Positions 2,710 to 30,760 of a stretch of 34,787 nucleotides of DNA are shown here, one piece after another. Numbering within the stretch: position 1 is the stretch's first letter; each line of letters opens with the position of its first letter. The stretch covers positions 1-34,787 of the IMG/VR virus record IMGVR_UViG_3300037882_001028; one strand, written 5' to 3'. The translations under genes were made by a program, and so were the position numbers. The notes below the pieces were generated by a model. It was not told the origin of the DNA, did no database searches, and saw nothing but the letters and a program-made list of their open reading frames with translations. Origin of the DNA: a virus.

Positions 2710-4481
2710 TATTTAGCTCCCTTGAGGGTGTCGACTTCGGCCTTGAGTTCTTGAATAGCCTTCACGAGAACCGGAATGAGGTCGGTGGGAGTCACGTTGT
2801 ACGTGTCATCTCCATGGACACACTCCGGAATAATATTGAGAAGGTTTTGAGCGGAAAAGCCTATCCGGCTGGAACCATTTTCTTCGGCGAGATAGTCGAA
2901 TCTGATTGTTTCAATTTCCATGACCTTGGATAATCCGTGGTCAAGGGGGACTATGTTTTTCTTCTGACGAACATCAGAAATGGCAGCCCAAGAAGTTCCA
3001 TTGACTGCCAAAGACACGCCGTTGGTATTATTCTGGATGTTGTAGGAACTGCCGTTAATGTAGTGGTGAATAACTGTGCTGGCAGGTCTGTGGAGGCTTA
3101 GCAGGTTGACGTTGTTGCCTGCGTCGGAAGCCTGTAAAATACCACTCCCAATATCCGACCCAGGACCTGCCCAAATTCGACCATAAGCCCTATGGGCTAC
3201 GCCACCAGCAGTAGGTCCAAATATCCATCCGCCATCAGCAGCATATCCACCGACAAAAGTCGCGGCTGGGTTCGAGTTCGTTCCGTTATAGAAAAACATG
3301 GAACCAGCGGTACCGTTCCCGTTGACGGAGATCCCAGCTCCACCCGTGCCCGTGCCGTTACGCGTGAAATAGAGGTCTGCTGATGAACTTGTGGAGTCAA
3401 TGTACACAGATGCGAAGCCACCAGCTCGGAAACGGTGAATGGCGTTGCCTGTGGTAGGTCCAAAGGTCCATGATCCCGTTGCGGTCACTCCTCCGGCGAC
3501 AGCATTTCCGGAGCAGAATTCAATCCCGACTCCAGCTACAACGGACCCAAATCCAATATTTGAGTTCGTGAAATTATTGTAAGCGTGCTTGCCAAGGAAC
3601 CATTGAGGGGTACCCGCTTGGCTACCCTCAACGTATCCGCCCGACCCACCACCATTGCGAATACGAAGAGCCACACCGTTAAAGGCATGGAGTTGACTCG
3701 AATCGCTTGCCGGTCCGAAGGTCCATGCCCCTGCTTGCGTAGCTGCAGCTACATCAACACCGGATTGATTTCGGACTTTAAGAGCCGACACACCATCAGC
3801 GCCAATATAGGCAAATCCAGCATTAGTGGAAGTGCGTTCAAGCTTAATCTGGTATTCGGTTCCTTCGCTTTGGAAGGCCGTGTTGAAGAACGTTGTGCCA
3901 TCCGTAGCACGTCCTCTAAACACGTGGCTAATGTTGGACGAGGCAGATGGCCCAAATATCCAAGCGCCAGTTGTAGAAGCCGTGGCGTTGACCGCACCGT
4001 TTGTCTTGAAGTTCAGCGCGAAGTTGTCGTTGGTGCCAAGGGTTAACGCCGTTCCAATGGAGTTCCCTCCGACAGCTACGGACCCAGCATTGTTGATGCT
4101 CCACTGCGCGGGGAGAGTAGGAGTAGCAGCCGTGGAATAAACCGTCACGGTGGAATTAGGGCCGACGACCGTAACCGAACCACCAGCCGAAGCATTGATA
4201 TTAATGCTTTGTGTGACAGAAAGATTGATCACCGAGACCGCATATCCGGTATAAACGTTAACTGATGGAAGAGTGACCGTACGAGTAGCAGTCGGCGTCA
4301 TCGACACCAAGCCACCATGCGTAGCTACATCCATGACGAGGTTTGCATCCGAAGCCGCAAACGGTCGCTGGCTAGAGCCCGAGAAACCAGAAGGCAAAAC
4401 GAGCGGCGAACCGGCTGTAGCCCCTTCAATGCCGTCTGTGGCTTTTGCGGTGGAGCCTGAGTTCCCTGGTATGAAAGACAT
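2709..4481 (-). CDS. Tail fibre protein with C-terminal S74 self-cleaving chaperone domain (fibre 2)
   Basis: A 590-residue paralogue of the flanking fibres. The N-terminus is MSFIPGNSGSTAKATDG. The middle has four repeat units marked GAWIFGP, GAWTFGP, GSWTFGP and GGWIFGP, each followed by an H-x-x-x-x-G element. The C-terminal ~90 residues are an S74 chaperone: S502-D-V-R-Q-K507, then IGFSAQ and LIPVLVKAIQELKAEVDTLKG, a short coiled coil. It overlaps the upstream fibre's stop and the downstream fibre's start by one base each (TAATG at 4481 and 2709), so the three fibres look like one translational unit. By family knowledge the S74 domain is cut away after trimer folding. Repeat number and sequence differ from its neighbours, so receptor range may differ too, which is inference. 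Confidence 0.88.
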   Translation of the reverse strand: MSFIPGNSGSTAKATDGIEGATAGSPLVLPSGFSGSSQRPFAASDANLVMDVATHGGLVSMTPTATRTVTLPSVNVYTGYAVSVINLSVTQSININASAGGSVTVVGPNSTVTVYSTAATPTLPAQWSINNAGSVAVGGNSIGTALTLGTNDNFALNFKTNGAVNATASTTGAWIFGPSASSNISHVFRGRATDGTTFFNTAFQSEGTEYQIKLERTSTNAGFAYIGADGVSALKVRNQSGVDVAAATQAGAWTFGPASDSSQLHAFNGVALRIRNGGGSGGYVEGSQAGTPQWFLGKHAYNNFTNSNIGFGSVVAGVGIEFCSGNAVAGGVTATGSWTFGPTTGNAIHRFRAGGFASVYIDSTSSSADLYFTRNGTGTGGAGISVNGNGTAGSMFFYNGTNSNPAATFVGGYAADGGWIFGPTAGGVAHRAYGRIWAGPGSDIGSGILQASDAGNNVNLLSLHRPASTVIHHYINGSSYNIQNNTNGVSLAVNGTSWAAISDVRQKKNIVPLDHGLSKVMEIETIRFDYLAEENGSSRIGFSAQNLLNIIPECVHGDDTYNVTPTDLIPVLVKAIQELKAEVDTLKGAK

Positions 4482-19540: not shown

Positions 19541-20680
19541 TCATTTGAAGAGCGAACCTATCGTATGAATAGGCTGAGCGGAGGGACCCCCTCCAGCAAA
19601 CAGAGCCAGAGCGGTGAAGTTGGACTTGAAGCAGGAATCTTCGAGAATCGGGTCTCTCAAAGCTCTTTTAAGCCTTTCATTTCCGCCGACACCAACAGGG
19701 ACCTGGAGGAAGTAGACCCCAGAGACTTTGGTCAGAGCGTTTATAAAATTCTGAATGGTGTCGAGAATCTCAAGCAGAGTCGTGACCTTCTCGGCTATGA
19801 TATTGGCAAGCTCCACCAGCGAATCCTTGGGAGACAGCAAATATCCACGGAGCGTCTCGATGAGGTCAAGGAGTTCCGACTGGATGGAAGCCAAGGTCGA
19901 AATGGAGTTCAGACGAAAGGATCTCCAATCCGGAACCACAGAGGGGTCGGTCGCCACTTCCCGAAACCGCTTGGTCTTCTTGAGAAGAAGCCTCCATTCG
20001 GGAATGTCGAATACAGACAGGAGCTTTTCGAGAAGGTCACCAAATCCGGCCAAGGTCGGAGACGTCACCAAGATCCCGAACATGGACACATTGGCCGCGT
20101 TCGAAAATTGGGGACGTTGGCTGTCTCCAGGGTCATCAAACGACAGGAACGACGCCAAGATGGCATCCGCTGGGGACAAAAGCGGAAACCCAGACAGCGG
20201 GTCCGTCTTCCGGCCCAGATTCTTCTTTCTGTTGGCGAAGGACAGAGCCGAGTTGTAAGCGAACTTGGCGTTGGACAGCCTACGGGTTCTTTCGATGGAT
20301 GTCAGCCGGAAATCCGAGTTGATTTCACGAAGCGTCTTCTCGTAAGCTGTTCTGGCCGTGAGAACATCTCTGTCGTAAGCCGTGGCGATAGCTGCAGCCT
20401 GCTCGTCCGAAAGTTCGAACGTAAACGGAGTGACCACCAGGGTGAAGGCCCCTGTTCCGAAGAGGTCGTTGACCACATTCTCAAGTTCTGTAATCCCAGC
20501 ATCAACCAGACCTTCAAAGATATTACCAAAATCCGTCAAAAATATCTTGGCCACCTGCAAGAACGCCTTGATAGTGGACAACAAAGGTGATATGGCCCCA
20601 AGAAGTGACGTAACTGGTTGGAGAGCGTCTGCAATGGCGTCTGGTATCGGGCTAGTGATCTCTGTCTTTTGCCACGCCAT
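19541..20680 (-). CDS. Unrecognised tail/baseplate protein, 379 aa
   Basis: Starts at ATG 20680 with GAGGAG upstream, inside the end of the 61-aa gene (29-base overlap). The 379 residues begin with amphipathic and apolar helices (LLGAISPLLSTIKAFLQVAKIFL, then FGNIFEGLVDAGI). A charged helical region follows (RDVLTARTAYEKTLREINSD), then a central segment (ANVSMFGILVTSPTLAGFGDLLEKLL), several long helices with WRLLLKKTKRF and SELLDLIETLRGYLL, and a final SNFTALALFAGGG. No enzyme or zinc motif is visible. The position after the spike and before gp25 suggests a baseplate or tail-tip part. I cannot tie it to a named family. Confidence 0.65.
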   Translation of the reverse strand: MAWQKTEITSPIPDAIADALQPVTSLLGAISPLLSTIKAFLQVAKIFLTDFGNIFEGLVDAGITELENVVNDLFGTGAFTLVVTPFTFELSDEQAAAIATAYDRDVLTARTAYEKTLREINSDFRLTSIERTRRLSNAKFAYNSALSFANRKKNLGRKTDPLSGFPLLSPADAILASFLSFDDPGDSQRPQFSNAANVSMFGILVTSPTLAGFGDLLEKLLSVFDIPEWRLLLKKTKRFREVATDPSVVPDWRSFRLNSISTLASIQSELLDLIETLRGYLLSPKDSLVELANIIAEKVTTLLEILDTIQNFINALTKVSGVYFLQVPVGVGGNERLKRALRDPILEDSCFKSNFTALALFAGGGPSAQPIHTIGSLFK

Positions 20681-24342: not shown

Positions 24343-26733
24343 TCAGTCTACGAGCGAAGTGTTCATGACAGCCAGAGTCAGGTCGTCGGTCCCTGTGGAC
24401 CTGAAATACGACTTAGCCGGATTGGGCTGGTAGACTGGTGTCTGAGTTTTGGAAGACGAGATGGAAGCTTGGTTTGAGGCCCTGGACTCTCTTCTGTCTC
24501 TAACAGCCGAGTTCATCCCGCTGTTGTTCAATGTCGAGAGTGCCGGAGACACCCTTCCCTTGTCCTTTTGAGACATTGAAGCTACATCAGGCTTCATGGA
24601 GTCCGGAGCCAGCATGAGAGCCCGTTCTTCGGCCCTTCTGCTGACCAACCCTGGCAAAGTCTTGTATTTGCCGGTGGTCTTGTCCTTGGCTTTATCGTAC
24701 TTGAGAAGCTTGTCCGCTGCGCCCTTGGAATCGCCCTCGTTTAGAGAATTGATGATCTTGTTGAGGCCCGGGTGGTCCGGACCCACATTGAAGGCGAACG
24801 AGGTCAGGGCCGCTTTCTGGTTCTCAGTGATGGGAACCTTGATGCGAGACAGGAAGGATTGGTGTTTTTCAATGTCCTTCTGAAGGAGAGCATCGTCCTC
24901 CTCTTTTGTAAGAGTCCTGTTAGGGTCCTCCCCTGGCAGGACTTTGTGACCGGTCCCAATGGTCAGGTGTCCAACGTCGTCCACGTAAGCCTTGGACCTA
25001 GACCCCTCCTTGTCCCGAATGAGCTGCTTGGTTTTCTCTTCCCCGGAGAGCCCAAGATACTTCGACACGGAAGCTGGAAGGATGTTGGCCGCACCCCTGG
25101 ACAAAGACGACACGGCGGAAGAAGCCACGGACTTTGCTTTAGGGAGAAGCTCCATCGGGTCCATGACCCTGAGGACCAAAGCTTTGAGCTTGCCGAGAAT
25201 TCCATCTGAACCAAACAGAGAGTCGAAGAAACCGGTGAAGGTGTCAGATATATTCCTGAACGAGAACTTTTCCATCGTGTCCGAGAACACGCCGGTTATC
25301 TTAGACACCATGCCCTTTGGTCCGAAGACAGAGTCAAAGGCTTTAGAGAATCCGGCATAAACAGTCTTCGAGCTGACAAGTCCGAACGTGAGACCGGAAA
25401 TGGCAGACGAGACCCCGGCCCCAAGCTTCTGACTCGTGGTAGCCTTCTTCCCGGGAGCTAGACCGGCGATGTTCTCAGCGTCATTAAAACCCTTGAACCC
25501 GTCGTAAGCCGCCATGCCTCCAGCAGCGATGAGACCGAGACCTGGGACAAATTTCAGGCCCCTTGCCGCGAGCTTACCGCCTTTGGCCAGGAGCCCACCG
25601 GCTGCAGACAAACCAGCCCCACCCATGCCCGCTGCAACGGACCCGGCTGTAGTCAGGGCTGGAACGACCTTTGTGGCCAGTGAAGCCGTGGCCCTACCAC
25701 CTTTGGCGATGATGCCGCCACCCTTCTTGAGAAGGTCACCAGCTTTGGAAAAGGCCCCATCTTTGCCGAACAGAGATTTAAGGTCGGCGAGTTCCTCGAC
25801 GATGTCATCGAGACCACCAAGTCCCAGGAACGCGAGACCTGTCCCGAGGGCTCCTCTCTTGACTGTACCCTGTACAGCGCCAAGCCCCTCCTTCTTGAAT
25901 TTCTCATAGAAGGATTCGCCGTCTTTGGCCTGCTTCTCGTTGACTTTCTTGATGCCCTTGAGGGTCAAGAGTTGTCCTTGGGACAATTCGGCAAGCTTCT
26001 GGTAGGAACCCTGGACCTTGGCCCCTTCTTTTGCCTGGACTTGGCGCAGGGCCACGAGGAACTCATTGCGCTCGGACTCGGTGGCGTTGAAGGTTTCCGC
26101 GTTGAAGGCCCTAATCAGTGCCTTGTCATCGCGAGAGGCGTTGGACTCCGCCACGAGATTCTGGATAGTCTGGAGGGCTTCCCTTTGGGATTCCAAGGTG
26201 GCTTCAGAATTGTGGAGTGTCTTTACAGCCGGGGCCGTCAAAGCGGGAAGGGAAGCCTGCAGGGAGTAGGACATCGAATCCAGGGAAGACGCCGTGTCAG
26301 ACAGAATGTTGACTATGTTTGCGGCGTACTCTGGAAATATCTCCCTGCCCTCTTTGAGCATGGATTCGAGTTCGACCCTGTCCTTGGAGTTGATGAGGTC
26401 GACGACCTTTTTGGCGTTCTCGTCAGTCATGGCCTTCTCTTGGAGAAGTTCCAGATTGTCGATGAGAACTTTAACGGTCAGGTTTTTTTGATTGATGAGA
26501 CCCTGGTAGGCTTTGCGGATCTCGTCCTGCTCAGCCGTGGACTTCTTCTCTCCGACCAAAAACCTGCGAACCTTACGAGAGGCCACCTTCAGGTTAGAGA
26601 GAACAGGGCGACCCTTAACAGGTGCTGAAGCTCCGTTGGCAATGAGGCCCTCGGTGGCAGACAGAACTTCTTCGCTCGCTTCTGCAGCAAGAGATGGGTC
26701 TTGTGGGATATTTTGGGTTTCTGGACCTGCCAT
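24343..26733 (-). CDS. Tape-measure-like tail protein with embedded T4-type lysozyme (GH24) domain
   Basis: A 796-residue protein from ATG 26733 (a GTG at 26745 would add four residues). The first ~250 residues are long charged helices. A Gly/Ala-rich, partly hydrophobic region spans about 290-480, with repeated GGGII.KGGRA and AAGGL-type pieces, like the membrane-associated stretches of tape measures. At about 566-716 is a complete lysozyme: E-G-S-R-S-K-A-Y-V-D-D-V-G-H-L-T-I-G-T-G-H reproduces the E11/D20/T26/H31 spacing of T4 lysozyme, followed by NQKAALTSFAFNVG and GLVSRRAEER. The last ~80 residues are low-complexity and polar. Role: sets tail length and cleaves peptidoglycan during injection. 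The 5' end is uncertain, because a strong ribosome site at 26796-26802 points to a GTG in another frame. A virion lysin with no measuring role is the alternative. Confidence 0.8.
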   Translation of the reverse strand: MAGPETQNIPQDPSLAAEASEEVLSATEGLIANGASAPVKGRPVLSNLKVASRKVRRFLVGEKKSTAEQDEIRKAYQGLINQKNLTVKVLIDNLELLQEKAMTDENAKKVVDLINSKDRVELESMLKEGREIFPEYAANIVNILSDTASSLDSMSYSLQASLPALTAPAVKTLHNSEATLESQREALQTIQNLVAESNASRDDKALIRAFNAETFNATESERNEFLVALRQVQAKEGAKVQGSYQKLAELSQGQLLTLKGIKKVNEKQAKDGESFYEKFKKEGLGAVQGTVKRGALGTGLAFLGLGGLDDIVEELADLKSLFGKDGAFSKAGDLLKKGGGIIAKGGRATASLATKVVPALTTAGSVAAGMGGAGLSAAGGLLAKGGKLAARGLKFVPGLGLIAAGGMAAYDGFKGFNDAENIAGLAPGKKATTSQKLGAGVSSAISGLTFGLVSSKTVYAGFSKAFDSVFGPKGMVSKITGVFSDTMEKFSFRNISDTFTGFFDSLFGSDGILGKLKALVLRVMDPMELLPKAKSVASSAVSSLSRGAANILPASVSKYLGLSGEEKTKQLIRDKEGSRSKAYVDDVGHLTIGTGHKVLPGEDPNRTLTKEEDDALLQKDIEKHQSFLSRIKVPITENQKAALTSFAFNVGPDHPGLNKIINSLNEGDSKGAADKLLKYDKAKDKTTGKYKTLPGLVSRRAEERALMLAPDSMKPDVASMSQKDKGRVSPALSTLNNSGMNSAVRDRRESRASNQASISSSKTQTPVYQPNPAKSYFRSTGTDDLTLAVMNTSLVD

Positions 26734-26812
26734 ATGCCTGGGCACCTCAAAGATCGTCTCGGAGTCAAGGACTCTTTCACGCTAGTCACTTTCAGCCCCT
26801 CCAGAATCATTG

Positions 26813-26953
26813 TCACTGGGACAAGTATACTTGGAGCTGTTCGTTCAAGAAAGAGACTTCAGAGTAGTCCAGGAATTGGATAGAGTAGGGGTCGATGTGG
26901 AGCTTAAGGGCCAAAAGAAATTCGGCTTTTAGAAGGCTCTGCGTCTCCGCGAA
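26813..26953 (-). CDS. Out-of-frame extension of the gp26-like gene (probable +1 or -2 recoding product)
   Basis: In the frame one base ahead of the gp26-like gene, reading is open from 26959, just after TAATAA (26965-26960), to a TGA at 26813. The 46 codons from 26953 encode a plausible folded, helical sequence (FAETQSLLKAEFLLALKL, then HIDPYSIQFLDYSEVSFLNE, QLQVYLSQ). There is no ATG or GTG; only a weak TTG. Frame 0 reads AUG CCC UUU just after those stops: CCC-U is a classic +1 slip site, and a shift there would give a 290-residue fusion. A second candidate is the CCU-UAA at the frame-0 stop. Short/long protein pairs made by ribosome shifting between tube and tape-measure genes are known in many tailed phages. 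A sequencing indel is the alternative. Confidence 0.6.
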   Translation of the reverse strand, partial: FAETQSLLKAEFLLALKLHIDPYSIQFLDYSEVSFLNEQLQVYLSQ

Positions 26954-27686
26954 AGGGCATTATTAGAGCCTGACCGCCATCAAGCTCGATTGAGTTCTTA
27001 TGTTCGCAATGGGAACATTTGAAGGTTGATGGTTTGAGGCCATGGAACAGGAGCGAATCCAACTGCTCAAGCGTGGCAGAGTCTTCACCCATGCATGAAT
27101 CGATGATAGGAACCATCTCTTCGATGGAATGCGACACGCACGCGGAAGCCAGAATGTGAACAGGGTCTTCGGATTTGCCCAAGGACTCTAAGTGGATGAG
27201 GGCTCCGACCGTTGGGAATCCGAACAGGAACTCTCCAGCCTGGAGCGAAACCTTGGCCGGAACGGACGGGATAGCCACGTCCTCAAACTCCATCTGGGAA
27301 GAGTTCAGAAAAGCCGAGTTCTCTTTGAAACAGCCTGCGCACCGATAAATCACCGTGGCCTTGGACGAACCTAGGGTGGATATCTTTCTGAGCAGACCGA
27401 TGAAGAGAAAATCCGACATGGTCAGATTCTCTGGTCCGAACGAGCAGGAAATCCCGGACAGGACCTCCTGGTATGCAGCCTTCGCCGTCATTTTCGACTG
27501 GGAGACCTTTTTGACCTCGCCGAACGAATATGGACGATAGGAGATCTCGCACCCGGCTGGATACGAAAGCCCCTTCGAAGGCAGTTTTTCTGCAGATAGG
27601 TGGATTTCCGGCAGGTTCGCCAGGGCAGGAGTCTTGGGCTCAGCCTTTACAGGCGAAAAGCCCTGACCGGGGGCAGGAGTGAACAT
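26904..27686 (-). CDS. gp26-like baseplate hub assembly / tail chaperone protein
   Basis: ATG 27686 follows GAAGGTG. The 260 residues include IHLSAEKLPSKGLSYPAGCEISYRPYSFGEVKKVSQ and a helical part (MSDFLFIGLLRKISTLG). Two Cys pairs, C116-x2-C119 and C224-x2-C227 (YRCAGC, KCSHCEHK), suggest a zinc site. This layout resembles the T4 gp26 base-plate family (PF12322), found in T4-like phages as a hub assembly protein. It lies between the tube genes and the tape-measure-like gene, the standard position of tail assembly chaperones. From Pro244 on, frame 0 is a short polar tail (FRGDAEPSKSRISFGP), while the +1 frame carries a helical continuation, so both a 260- and a 290-residue product may exist. 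The family is likely; the assembly role is inferred. Confidence 0.75.
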   Translation of the reverse strand: MFTPAPGQGFSPVKAEPKTPALANLPEIHLSAEKLPSKGLSYPAGCEISYRPYSFGEVKKVSQSKMTAKAAYQEVLSGISCSFGPENLTMSDFLFIGLLRKISTLGSSKATVIYRCAGCFKENSAFLNSSQMEFEDVAIPSVPAKVSLQAGEFLFGFPTVGALIHLESLGKSEDPVHILASACVSHSIEEMVPIIDSCMGEDSATLEQLDSLLFHGLKPSTFKCSHCEHKNSIELDGGQALIMPFRGDAEPSKSRISFGP

Positions 27687-27713: not shown

Positions 27714-28196
27714 TCATACCTGTCCGGCCACATGAAAAGGCATCTGATAGGACACGAGTCCAGTTTCAGAAGTCCCAGTGTAGGTCAGGGGTCCGATGGG
27801 GAAGACAGAATAAGTAGTGGAAGAAATTTGAACTCTAGCGGAAGTGTGCTTAATTATTTGAAGCTTGCGAACAGCGGTATCAAGAGCAGCTACGGTTTGA
27901 CCCCGACCCAGAATGACAGTGTCAATCCAAGTCTTGAGCCAACGAGAGAGAGCGTGGGACTCGGAATCCAGGAAGGTGAGACGGATCTCTTTGGCCCCTC
28001 CAGATTCCGGGATCTTGAAATTGGACAAACCACCCTCGAAGTTGAAGGTGGACAAAACGGCAAGCTCTTCTGTGACCTCGGTAGCAGGGAACCAGTTCGA
28101 AAACGGGTCCGGGGCTCCCTCGAATCTGCAATCCCACAGATAGGAGGAACCCCATTGGACCTGTCGAAGTTGTTCAATCGAGGTCAGAAAAGTCAA
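27714..28196 (-). CDS. Second tail tube-family protein, 160 aa
   Basis: TTG 28196 is taken as the start: it overlaps the tube gene's TGA (TTGA) with AAGGA 8-9 bases upstream; a longer reading to 28298 would lie inside the tube gene. The 160 residues (MTFLTSIEQLRQVQWGSSYLWDCRF, then PDPFSNWFPATEVTEE) have tube-like beta patterning: two sheets joined by a helix (SESHALSRWLKTWIDTVIL) and an end pair (VFPIGPLTYTGTSETGLVSYQMPFHV). The arrangement recalls gp19-fold proteins, but sequence similarity to the major tube is slight. Possible roles: a minor tube protein, the tube initiator on the baseplate, or a tail terminator. The neighbours suggest the tube end. Confidence 0.68.
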   Translation of the reverse strand: MTFLTSIEQLRQVQWGSSYLWDCRFEGAPDPFSNWFPATEVTEELAVLSTFNFEGGLSNFKIPESGGAKEIRLTFLDSESHALSRWLKTWIDTVILGRGQTVAALDTAVRKLQIIKHTSARVQISSTTYSVFPIGPLTYTGTSETGLVSYQMPFHVAGQV

Positions 28197-28717
28197 ATCT
28201 TGCCATCCTTGAAGTAGTCGTAGTTGAAGGTAATCGAGGGCTTCATGAAGTCCGAGGTCGAACCGTCGAGAGTTCCCTTGGTGTCCGTCCCTGGCCACGC
28301 GCCGATGAGTTCGTACTTCCAGATCTGGGCGTCCAGGTTGTTCAGACGATAAAGCGTGAGAGTGGATTTCAAGGTGGACATCACGCCAGCCTGGACGCCA
28401 GTCTGGGTAGCCCAGAGAGCCTCACGCCACGATTTGATGAAAGCCGAGATCTTGGAATCCACGGTTTCGACGAAGCTGAGCGAGATGGACCCGTTGTAGT
28501 CCATGATGCCAGCTTGCTGAATCTTGTGGCCACGAATCTGGACGTTCGAAACGTTGACTGTGGTCGTTGGGAGTTCAGCAGTCTCGCATCGGAAGTTGAG
28601 TTCGTCGGTGGTGGCGAGTCCGGAAACCCCGGTGGGGGGAGTGAGGGCGACTTCCCAGCGGAACAGAGAAGCGAAGTCTCCGAGTCCACGGATGTTTTCA
28701 ATAGTGGGCCTTGGCAT
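28193..28717 (-). CDS. Major tail tube protein, gp19-like
   Basis: A 174-residue protein with AAAGGA 8-9 bases before ATG 28717. MPRPTIENIRGLGDFASLFRWEV is the usual opening of the T4 gp19 tube family, followed by CETAELPTTTVNVSNVQIRGHKI, GSISLSFVETVDSKISAFIKSWREA and the closing F-x-x-D-Y strand (ITFNYDYFKDGKI). Length and position after the sheath gene match. Hexameric rings stack inside the sheath and form the DNA channel. The gene follows a terminator at 28741-28777, and its stop overlaps the second tube-like gene. Confidence 0.9.
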   Translation of the reverse strand: MPRPTIENIRGLGDFASLFRWEVALTPPTGVSGLATTDELNFRCETAELPTTTVNVSNVQIRGHKIQQAGIMDYNGSISLSFVETVDSKISAFIKSWREALWATQTGVQAGVMSTLKSTLTLYRLNNLDAQIWKYELIGAWPGTDTKGTLDGSTSDFMKPSITFNYDYFKDGKI

Positions 28718-28780: not shown

Positions 28781-30760
28781 TCAGACGAGGGTCGCGGCCT
28801 GAGCGAAGGAGAGACCCGAAGAGGTGATGATAGTCCGGAGAGGGATGAATTCCACGGACTTCTTGGGCTTGACGTAAACGTCCACGTTCATCTTGTTGTT
28901 GTCAACATCGGATGGCGTGTTGTTCGAGTCGTCCGAGACCACCAGGAAGTCATCGATACCGCGACGAGCCTTGATGCCGTCCAGGTAGGAAGTGATGACC
29001 GAAACTGCGAAGTTCCGGGTCGCCTGATCGTTGAGTTCGAACAGGAAGTCTTCCAGGGCTGCAGCAATGGCAGGCTCGATGACGATGAGGAGCAGACGGA
29101 CGTTGAGCCGGTCGAGAGCCGAAGGACGCGACAAGAGAGTCTTCTGTCCCCAGATGGCGATACCCTTGCCCGGAGCGAACCGGAGAGGGTTGATGCCAGC
29201 GTCGTACAGGGCATCGAGTTCGCCACGGGTGAAGCGGCGACGGAGGTCGAGGACCTGGACCAGACCACGGCGGAAGCCAGCGGGTGGGAACCAGATTTCG
29301 AAGTTCGAAGCCGAGAACGAGATAGCCGCTCCTGCGTAGCCGTCTGGGGCCACGTAGACGCGCCGGTCATTGAACCGGTCGTAGACCAGAGCGTGAGGCG
29401 AAAACAGAGCCGAGTAGGACGTGTTGAGGTTAAGCTCGGTCCTACGGTAGTCGACAATGTCAGTCAGGTAGCTCGACGCGATCTCCTTGGCGATTGGCAC
29501 CGACAAGAGAGCCACGCAGTCCATACGGGTGGACGCGATGGCGTTGAGCGTCGACTGATAGGCGGGGGAGGCGAATCCACCGTCCATGAGCAGGGTCACA
29601 GGCACGTCGTCGGGAGATGCCATGGTGTTCGCAGCCGCGATCATTTCCGAGTCGGTGACCGCGAGGCCGTCCGTACCACCAGCCATGAGCAGGATGGTGC
29701 TCTGGGCCTTGGGATAGACGGTCGAAGCCACTGCCGGGTTGGAAATGGCCCGGATGAAACTCGAACCCTGGAGGACGTTGTCCACGAAGATGTTGCGGCC
29801 AAATCCATCGCGAGCGGCGATGTCCCTGGAGCAGATGAAAGATTCCACGGGAACCTGGAGATTCGAAGTCTTGTAGACCTCAATCAGGAAGGCACCGGGT
29901 TCTTTGACGACTTCAGGGGCGAGGTCGTAGGTGAAGATCTTCACGCCAACCGAGCTGCCCCAAAGGCCAGGGGACGAAGCGTAGATGAGGATGCATTCAT
30001 CAACGACCGCAACGGCATCTGCACCCTGGACGGTCACGTTGAGCGTGAATCCAGACGTTGCAGCCGTAGGGGCTCCGACGTTGCCAGCCACCGCGTTCGT
30101 CACAGTGACCGTGGCGGATGCCGCAGTCGCCAAGAAGGCGGGGAGAGCGTCAAGAGCAGCGGCAGTGGCCGTAGCTACCTGAGCAGCCGTGGCGTTCGTG
30201 GAAACGGCCACTTCGACGCCAACGAGACCACCGCCGGGAGCCGGGTCAGTTCCCGCACCGTTGACGTTGTACCACACGTAGAATCCAGTCCCAGGGGAGG
30301 GCTGGAGGAGCGTGAAATACACATTGTTGAGCGAGCCTGCAACGTCGGCGAGAACCGTAACCGTCGTGACTTCAGCCACGGCGGGGGTATCTGGAGCCGC
30401 GTCGAACACGTAGGCCGTTGGGTCCGAAAGACCAGCCGAGATATTGAAGTTGGTCAGAGACGAAGCCGCCGTCCTGAGAGACAGACCGGAGAACTTTGCC
30501 TGCTTAGCGGCGCGGACAACCCACAACTTGTTGGACTGCTGCAGGAAGGCGAGGGCCGAGAAATATGACAAGTCGTAGCCAACTTCAATCCGGGAGTCCG
30601 GCGTGAAGGTGTCGAGGAATTGCGCGTCCGAGGTCACCAGAAATGGTGTGTTGACAGGTCCCTTACGAGCAGGGACCACGATTCCACCATAAACGCCAGG
30701 GAAAGATGGCACCCTGGTGGAAAGGTCGATTTCTTTAGGAAATACTCCAGGTGCAACCAT
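28781..30760 (-). CDS. Tail sheath protein, gp18-like, with inserted beta domain
   Basis: A 659-residue protein; AAGGAG lies 7 bases before ATG 30760. MVAPGVFPKEIDLSTRVPSFPGVYGGIVVPARKGPVNTPFLV is a typical sheath start, and the C-terminal half (RRGLVQVLDLRRRFTRGELDALYDAGINPLRFAPGKGIAIWGQKTLL, then LNVRLLLIVIE) is the conserved contractile core. Between them, at about residues 125-257, is an extra Thr/Val/Ala-rich module (GFYVWYNVNGAGTDPAPGGG, VEVAVSTNATAAQVATATAAAL, SATVTVTNAV), which is not part of the sheath core and probably faces outward. Contraction of the sheath drives the tube into the cell envelope. Terminator follows. Confidence 0.92.
   Translation of the reverse strand: MVAPGVFPKEIDLSTRVPSFPGVYGGIVVPARKGPVNTPFLVTSDAQFLDTFTPDSRIEVGYDLSYFSALAFLQQSNKLWVVRAAKQAKFSGLSLRTAASSLTNFNISAGLSDPTAYVFDAAPDTPAVAEVTTVTVLADVAGSLNNVYFTLLQPSPGTGFYVWYNVNGAGTDPAPGGGLVGVEVAVSTNATAAQVATATAAALDALPAFLATAASATVTVTNAVAGNVGAPTAATSGFTLNVTVQGADAVAVVDECILIYASSPGLWGSSVGVKIFTYDLAPEVVKEPGAFLIEVYKTSNLQVPVESFICSRDIAARDGFGRNIFVDNVLQGSSFIRAISNPAVASTVYPKAQSTILLMAGGTDGLAVTDSEMIAAANTMASPDDVPVTLLMDGGFASPAYQSTLNAIASTRMDCVALLSVPIAKEIASSYLTDIVDYRRTELNLNTSYSALFSPHALVYDRFNDRRVYVAPDGYAGAAISFSASNFEIWFPPAGFRRGLVQVLDLRRRFTRGELDALYDAGINPLRFAPGKGIAIWGQKTLLSRPSALDRLNVRLLLIVIEPAIAAALEDFLFELNDQATRNFAVSVITSYLDGIKARRGIDDFLVVSDDSNNTPSDVDNNKMNVDVYVKPKKSVEFIPLRTIITSSGLSFAQAATLV

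Follow-up and report, generated by a model that had tools for sequence, protein, structure and literature searches.

The question raised by this locus is whether a single gp26-like gene, located between the tail tube and tape-measure genes of a phage, encodes one protein or two. The window, i.e., the whole 34,787-nucleotide stretch of viral DNA that was analysed, carries this gene and its neighbours on the minus strand (Table 1). The 260-aa product of the gene passes the gathering cut-off of the Pfam family T4_baseplate (PF12322), with 27.5 bits against a cut-off of 24.5, and also matches phrog_150 (baseplate hub). It contains two CxxC pairs (residues 116-119 and 224-227), the cysteines of which are invariant in alignment A6. 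The tape-measure gene was called from its position and size, and the order from the gp26-like gene to this large open reading frame matches that in the relatives. The location of the PF12322 gene between tube and tape-measure genes is shared by the window and nearly all annotated relatives; the order differs in Thermus phage phiLo. A search for related loci with either the window protein or the Rhizobium protein as query returned no matches.

On the minus strand, frame 0 reads AUG CCC UUU CGC at 26960-26949 and ends in MPFRGDAEPSKSRISFGP at CCU_UAA. The sequence-only reading of this DNA had drawn attention to a TAATAA followed by AUG CCC UUU, and to a +1 frame that then stays open for 47 codons without ATG or GTG; these coordinates were confirmed base by base. 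As both stops of the TAATAA lie in the +1 frame, the 5' limit of any shift is fixed. The +1 frame is open from 26959 to a TGA at 26815-26813, corresponding to 48 codons, or 47 when counted from CCT, and a scan of this frame for start codons found no ATG and no GTG, only TTG. Fusion of both frames would result in a long form of 290 aa. The CCU-UAA at the end of frame 0 had been proposed as a further +1-prone context. It is indeed present, but it is private to the window phage and was rejected as the main shift site on that ground.

Table 1. Coordinates of the features of the gp26-like locus in the window.
Feature	Position	Strand	Support
Large ORF, 800 aa, lysozyme domain, tape-measure position, downstream	24343..26745	-	Phage_lysozyme E 2e-26; phrog_7
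+1-frame extension, 47 codons + TGA	26813..26956	-	homologous tails and dN/dS in relatives
CCU_UAA, frame-0 end, possible second +1 site, not conserved	26904..26909	-	comparison with relatives
0-frame gene, short form, 260 aa, gp26-like T4_baseplate (PF12322)	27686-26904	-	Pfam and PHROG match
Putative shift site CCC_UUU_CGC (Pro244-Phe245-Arg246, frame 0)	26949..26957	-	same position in relatives
TAATAA, two +1-frame stops	26965-26960	-	base-by-base coordinate check
Weak Shine-Dalgarno-like GGCGGU, 15 nt 5' of CCC	26973..26978	-	dG -5.4; p 0.18
Tail-tube-like gene, next upstream	27714..28298	-	weak phrog_1842 match, E 0.04
Tail tube gene (gp19-like)	28193..28717	-	phrog_45, E 4e-20
Tail sheath gene	28781..30760	-	phrog_23, E 1e-82

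At the base composition of the window, the +1 frame has a probability of about 0.32 of extending beyond the 0-frame stop without interruption; runs of similar or greater length are present in other genes of the window. The open frame is compatible with chance alone, and its significance therefore comes only from conservation in relatives. Among named phages, 28 homologues were found with tblastn, at 24-32% identity, and the +1 frame runs past the 0-frame stop in all distinct homologues inspected. Counting metagenomic contigs as well, and defining a lineage by less than 70% identity to the others, the two-frame arrangement was identified in 23 lineages, which include phages of Vibrio, Escherichia, Rhizobium, Acinetobacter, Pseudomonas, Thermus, Cobetia and Yersinia together with metagenomic phages. 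A check of whether homologues keep the two frames and the site, as suggested along with the initial reading, is thus positive. The motif CCN_UUU_CG is found at the identical position in 20 of the 23 lineages, 19 of them with CGU, while CGC occurs in the window only. The exceptions are Vibrio phage Va2 (UUU_CCC_UAU) and the Cobetia (CCU_UGA) and Yersinia (CCC_UAG) phages. In most UUU_CG sequences, the spacing between the site and a conserved TTTGGC, read as FG in frame 0 and as LA in the +1 frame, is constant.

The substitution pattern indicates that the +1 frame beyond the 0-frame stop is under purifying selection and evolves as protein. In a pair of Vibrio phages, 16 of 36.5 synonymous sites are changed in this region versus 6 of 140.5 nonsynonymous sites; for the pair L027/L028, these values are 10 of 15.8 and 1 of 74.2. 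The tail of the window phage aligns readily with those of its nearer relatives (L075, L059, L062 and L019). The +1 frame could also be expressed as a separate small protein, by internal initiation or by reinitiation after the 0-frame stop, without any frameshift. A second small coding sequence from an internal start is annotated in some records, and a Shine-Dalgarno (SD)-like element is located upstream in many lineages. This explanation is nonetheless very improbable, because the start codon is not conserved and four lineages (AbTPeters, phiLo, Carin-5 and YerA41) lack any start before the 0-frame stop. The TTG of the window has no SD nearby, many lineages carry +1-frame stops just 5' of the site, and initiation would not require the nucleotide-level conservation that the site shows. 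The chance that the gene is truly a single frame, broken by one wrong base through a sequencing error or in a pseudogene, is negligible, the homologues having refuted it: L029 is the only relative with the long form in a single frame, whereas the frame is broken at the identical place in 23 lineages, among them phage isolates that were sequenced independently. Single-frame homologues had been named beforehand as a finding that would refute the shift. L029 is the sole case, and even there both the site and the stop of frame 0 are retained. Its single frame (3340-3536) is due to a difference of one base, which lies about 35 nt upstream and close to the end of the contig, and is most simply explained as an error or a recent mutation.

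As to the nature of the shift, a programmed +1 or -2 event at CCC-U had been put forward. The homologues support the +1 direction; -2 was rejected as unlikely, because re-pairing after a move of two bases backwards would be possible neither for tRNA-Phe nor for tRNA-Pro. CCC-U as slip site is less well supported, as CCC gives way to CCG, CCA or CCU in lineages that retain UUU_CG, so that the conserved CCC expected of a PSA/SPP1-type CCC_U shift is missing. UUU_CGN lies on a 0-frame codon boundary within the overlap in the window and 20 of the 23 lineages. Since UUU_CG is constant while the proline codon (CCN) varies, a slip of tRNA-Phe from UUU to UUC is favoured over CCC_U. In a blind scan of IMG/VR, the pattern CCCTTTCGNNGA-N30-TTTGGC matched 15 contigs, 13 of which carry a PF12322 gene at the match (these include several near-identical copies and represent about seven lineages). 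Its synonymous UUC version matched four contigs, none with the gene, and a scan with CC[AGT]-UUU-CGU matched 19, four of them with the gene. No UUC was seen at the site in any copy of the gp26-like gene examined. It remains conceivable, although improbable, that tRNA-Pro slips from CCC to CCU one codon earlier, in the manner of Listeria phage PSA and SPP1, with UUU as a bystander. CCC is the commonest proline codon at the site, though rare in many of these phages, CCY_U is present in Va2 (CCC_UAU), Carin-5 (CCU_UGA) and the Yersinia phages (CCC_UAG), and the literature offers precedent. Such a slip is difficult to reconcile with the six lineages that have CCG, CCA or CCU and retain UUU_CG, with the poor re-pairing of CCG on CGU, and with a UUC never found in the gene. 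A slip by the P-site tRNA-Phe on UUU_C, inferred from these alignments, fits better than one on CCC_U. Elsewhere in the genes of the window, UUU_CGN occurs nine times versus 3.6 expected; it is not avoided, and by itself the motif probably causes little shifting in this phage. A second tail gene of the window (19541-20680) contains the exact influenza PA-X cassette, UCC_UUU_CGU, in frame at codon 255.

A possible stimulator is the SD-like element upstream of the site. The copy in the window is not significant alone (Table 1), and many relatives have GGAGG. In 15 of the 20 UUU_CG lineages, the element is located 13-19 nt 5' of the site, and the combined probability over 22 lineages is about 3e-14, a value that treats the lineages as independent and is somewhat overstated. 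The element occurs in all three codon phases and is thus not the by-product of one amino-acid motif. Its role as a stimulator is inferred; the window copy is weak, and stimulators of +1 shifts do not usually lie at such a distance. No consistent conserved 3' stem or pseudoknot was found, with z-scores scattering around zero. A signal of the type known from prfB (release factor 2), with an SD 2-4 nt 5' of the slip codon and a stop codon in the A site, is absent from the window and the main group, which lack an A-site stop and have their SD-like element at a distance of 13-19 nt. Only the Cobetia and Yersinia relatives meet this description, with an SD-like element 2-3 nt from the slip codon, followed by a stop. 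The sequences are AGGGGG-UAC-CCU-UGA in Cobetia phage Carin-5 (L015 2180-2205) and AGGAGU-UAU-CCC-UAG in Yersinia phages GN1 and YerA41 (L022 and L023, 2235-2260).

It is very likely that a programmed +1 frameshift yields forms of 260 and 290 aa, which are most likely a pair of tail assembly chaperones, although no product has been detected experimentally. At the level of sequence, the conserved site, the conserved +1 coding and the presence of one gene here versus two in T4-like phages are firmly supported; the slip on UUU, the role of the SD-like element, the product ratio and the chaperone function are inferred. The majority of ribosomes would continue through AUG-CCC-UUU-CGC in frame 0 and terminate after 260 aa. 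In a minority, the tRNA-Phe in the P site would move by +1 and re-pair from UUU to UUC, with CGC waiting in the A site, after which GCG-GAG.. would be read in the +1 frame to give the 290-aa form. Both forms would share their first 245 residues, the long one ending in a 45-residue tail.

A similar P-site slip of tRNA-Phe from UUU to UUC has been proposed for influenza PA-X (PMC3498833), and amalgaviruses share a UUU_CGN +1 motif (PMC5052127). The codon-boundary position of UUU_CG, the +1 direction and the tRNA-Phe model are common to PA-X, the plant amalgaviruses and the present gene; the first two come from eukaryotic RNA viruses, the last from dsDNA phages of bacteria in which an SD-like element lies upstream. 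Listeria phage PSA and B. subtilis phage SPP1 also use +1 shifts involving a proline codon in virion genes. Their CCC, however, precedes a stop or a pseudoknot in major tail or capsid proteins, and in the present gene it is UUU_CG, not CCC, that cannot be exchanged.

The short and long products would act as a chaperone pair on the tape-measure protein, like gpG and gpGT of lambda. In both cases, the gene lies between the tube and tape-measure genes and a short form is accompanied by a frameshifted, C-terminally extended one, but lambda uses a -1 shift, other slippery sites and a different protein family. Shifts in other directions are known from chaperone genes (-2 in Mu, likely +1 in haloarchaeal HSTV-2), and the G/GT frameshift is conserved among long-tailed phages, T4 excepted (PMC5009743). 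Judged from sequence alone, the defining trait of G/GT, a frameshift giving a C-terminally extended minor form, is met in the 23 lineages. In T4-like phages, two paralogues would provide the equivalent pair, gp26 as the short and gp51 as the long form. Both T4 proteins belong to PF12322 and are encoded near tail genes; gp26 stops shortly past the second CxxC region, at about the end of the 0-frame product, and gp51 is about 45 residues longer. T4 and the other Straboviridae have two PF12322 genes and no frameshift, whereas the frameshift phages, including that of the window, have one gene with a +1 shift. The +1-clade tail and the gp51 tail can be aligned in register. Equally high scores are, however, reached by 5 of 199 column shuffles, and a further comparison of the two was not significant, so that their homology is only suggestive. 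An hhalign comparison of whole long forms paired different protein halves and was not used, and aligning short forms together with tail pieces gave a poor result.

A structure model of the short form (pLDDT 78.6; the long form was not included) matches hub and hub-assembly proteins of T4-like phages in Foldseek (E 1e-10 to 1e-7, TM ~0.6), the matched baseplate hub and hub-assembly structures being predictions themselves. The HK97 gp13/gpG-like chaperone fold (PDB 2ob9) gave no significant match to this model (E 4.3, TM 0.37 by target). Rather than chaperones, the two forms might be structural components of the baseplate hub, the long form being a minor hub part. This possibility, which we consider rather unlikely, is consistent with the Pfam and PHROG names, which say baseplate hub, and with some T4 genetics placing gp26 in the hub (PMC3004832). 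It is weakened by the location of the gene between the tube and tape-measure genes, by the short/long pair and by gp51, which is reported to be missing from the T4 particle although it is essential, its function being unknown (PMC3004832). The same review classes gp26 and gp51 as hub assembly chaperones (PMC3004832). The simplest reading, inferred from these analyses, is that PF12322 proteins are the tail assembly chaperones of these phages, with either a frameshift or a pair of genes as the source of the short and the long form. With a G/GT-type pair inferred, T4, the reported exception to G/GT frameshifting, may instead use two genes for the same purpose. Two gp26-like genes look misannotated, those of Thermus phage phiLo (L014 1453-2199, DNA methylase) and Rhizobium phage RHph_TM39 (L006 1450-2235, peptidase domain-containing protein).

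Further PF12322 phages were sampled, not surveyed. A single PF12322 gene with a conserved -1-frame tail that extends past the stop and resembles the gp51 tail is present in Vi01 (L081 2184-2450), phiEa2809 (L087 1306-1540) and Vibrio phage K448 (L088 1243-1500), and a -1 frameshift at a UUC beside the stop is likely, on this basis, in the Ackermannviridae (Vi01, phiEa2809), where the candidate site is AUU_UUC_AUU_UAA, and in K448. With an HMM of the gp51 tail, the phiEa2809 tail scores above all 2000 shuffled decoys, and the profile comparison of gp51 tails with -1 tails gives P 2e-4. Bacillus phage SP-15 (L082 2200-2440) and Listeria phage LIS04 (L089 1290-1540) have a PF12322 gene with a conserved +1-frame tail, where a UUUUUU run is the candidate slip. 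PaBG (L084) and CP220 (L083, L085) each have two PF12322-like genes, of which one is short and the other has a longer tail at the C-terminus, as with gp26/gp51. Whether PF12322 contractile-tail phages generally need a short and a long chaperone is, in our judgement, evenly balanced. The means would be a +1 shift (present clade, SP-15, LIS04), a -1 shift (Ackermannviridae, K448) or two genes (T4, PaBG, CP220).

A search of the literature, limited to open-licence papers, found no report of recoding in the PF12322 family. A frameshifted tail chaperone is a known kind of protein; the family, the direction, the motif and the link with gp26/gp51 appear new. For dsDNA phages, this would add a widely conserved +1 programmed frameshift with a UUU_CG motif and an unusually distant SD-like element. 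Many phage records omit the long product or list a separate small gene instead. If the general need for two forms holds true, the G/GT rule would not truly be broken by T4, whose GT equivalent would be gp51, an essential protein without known function, which may explain how the gp26/gp51 pair of T4 works.
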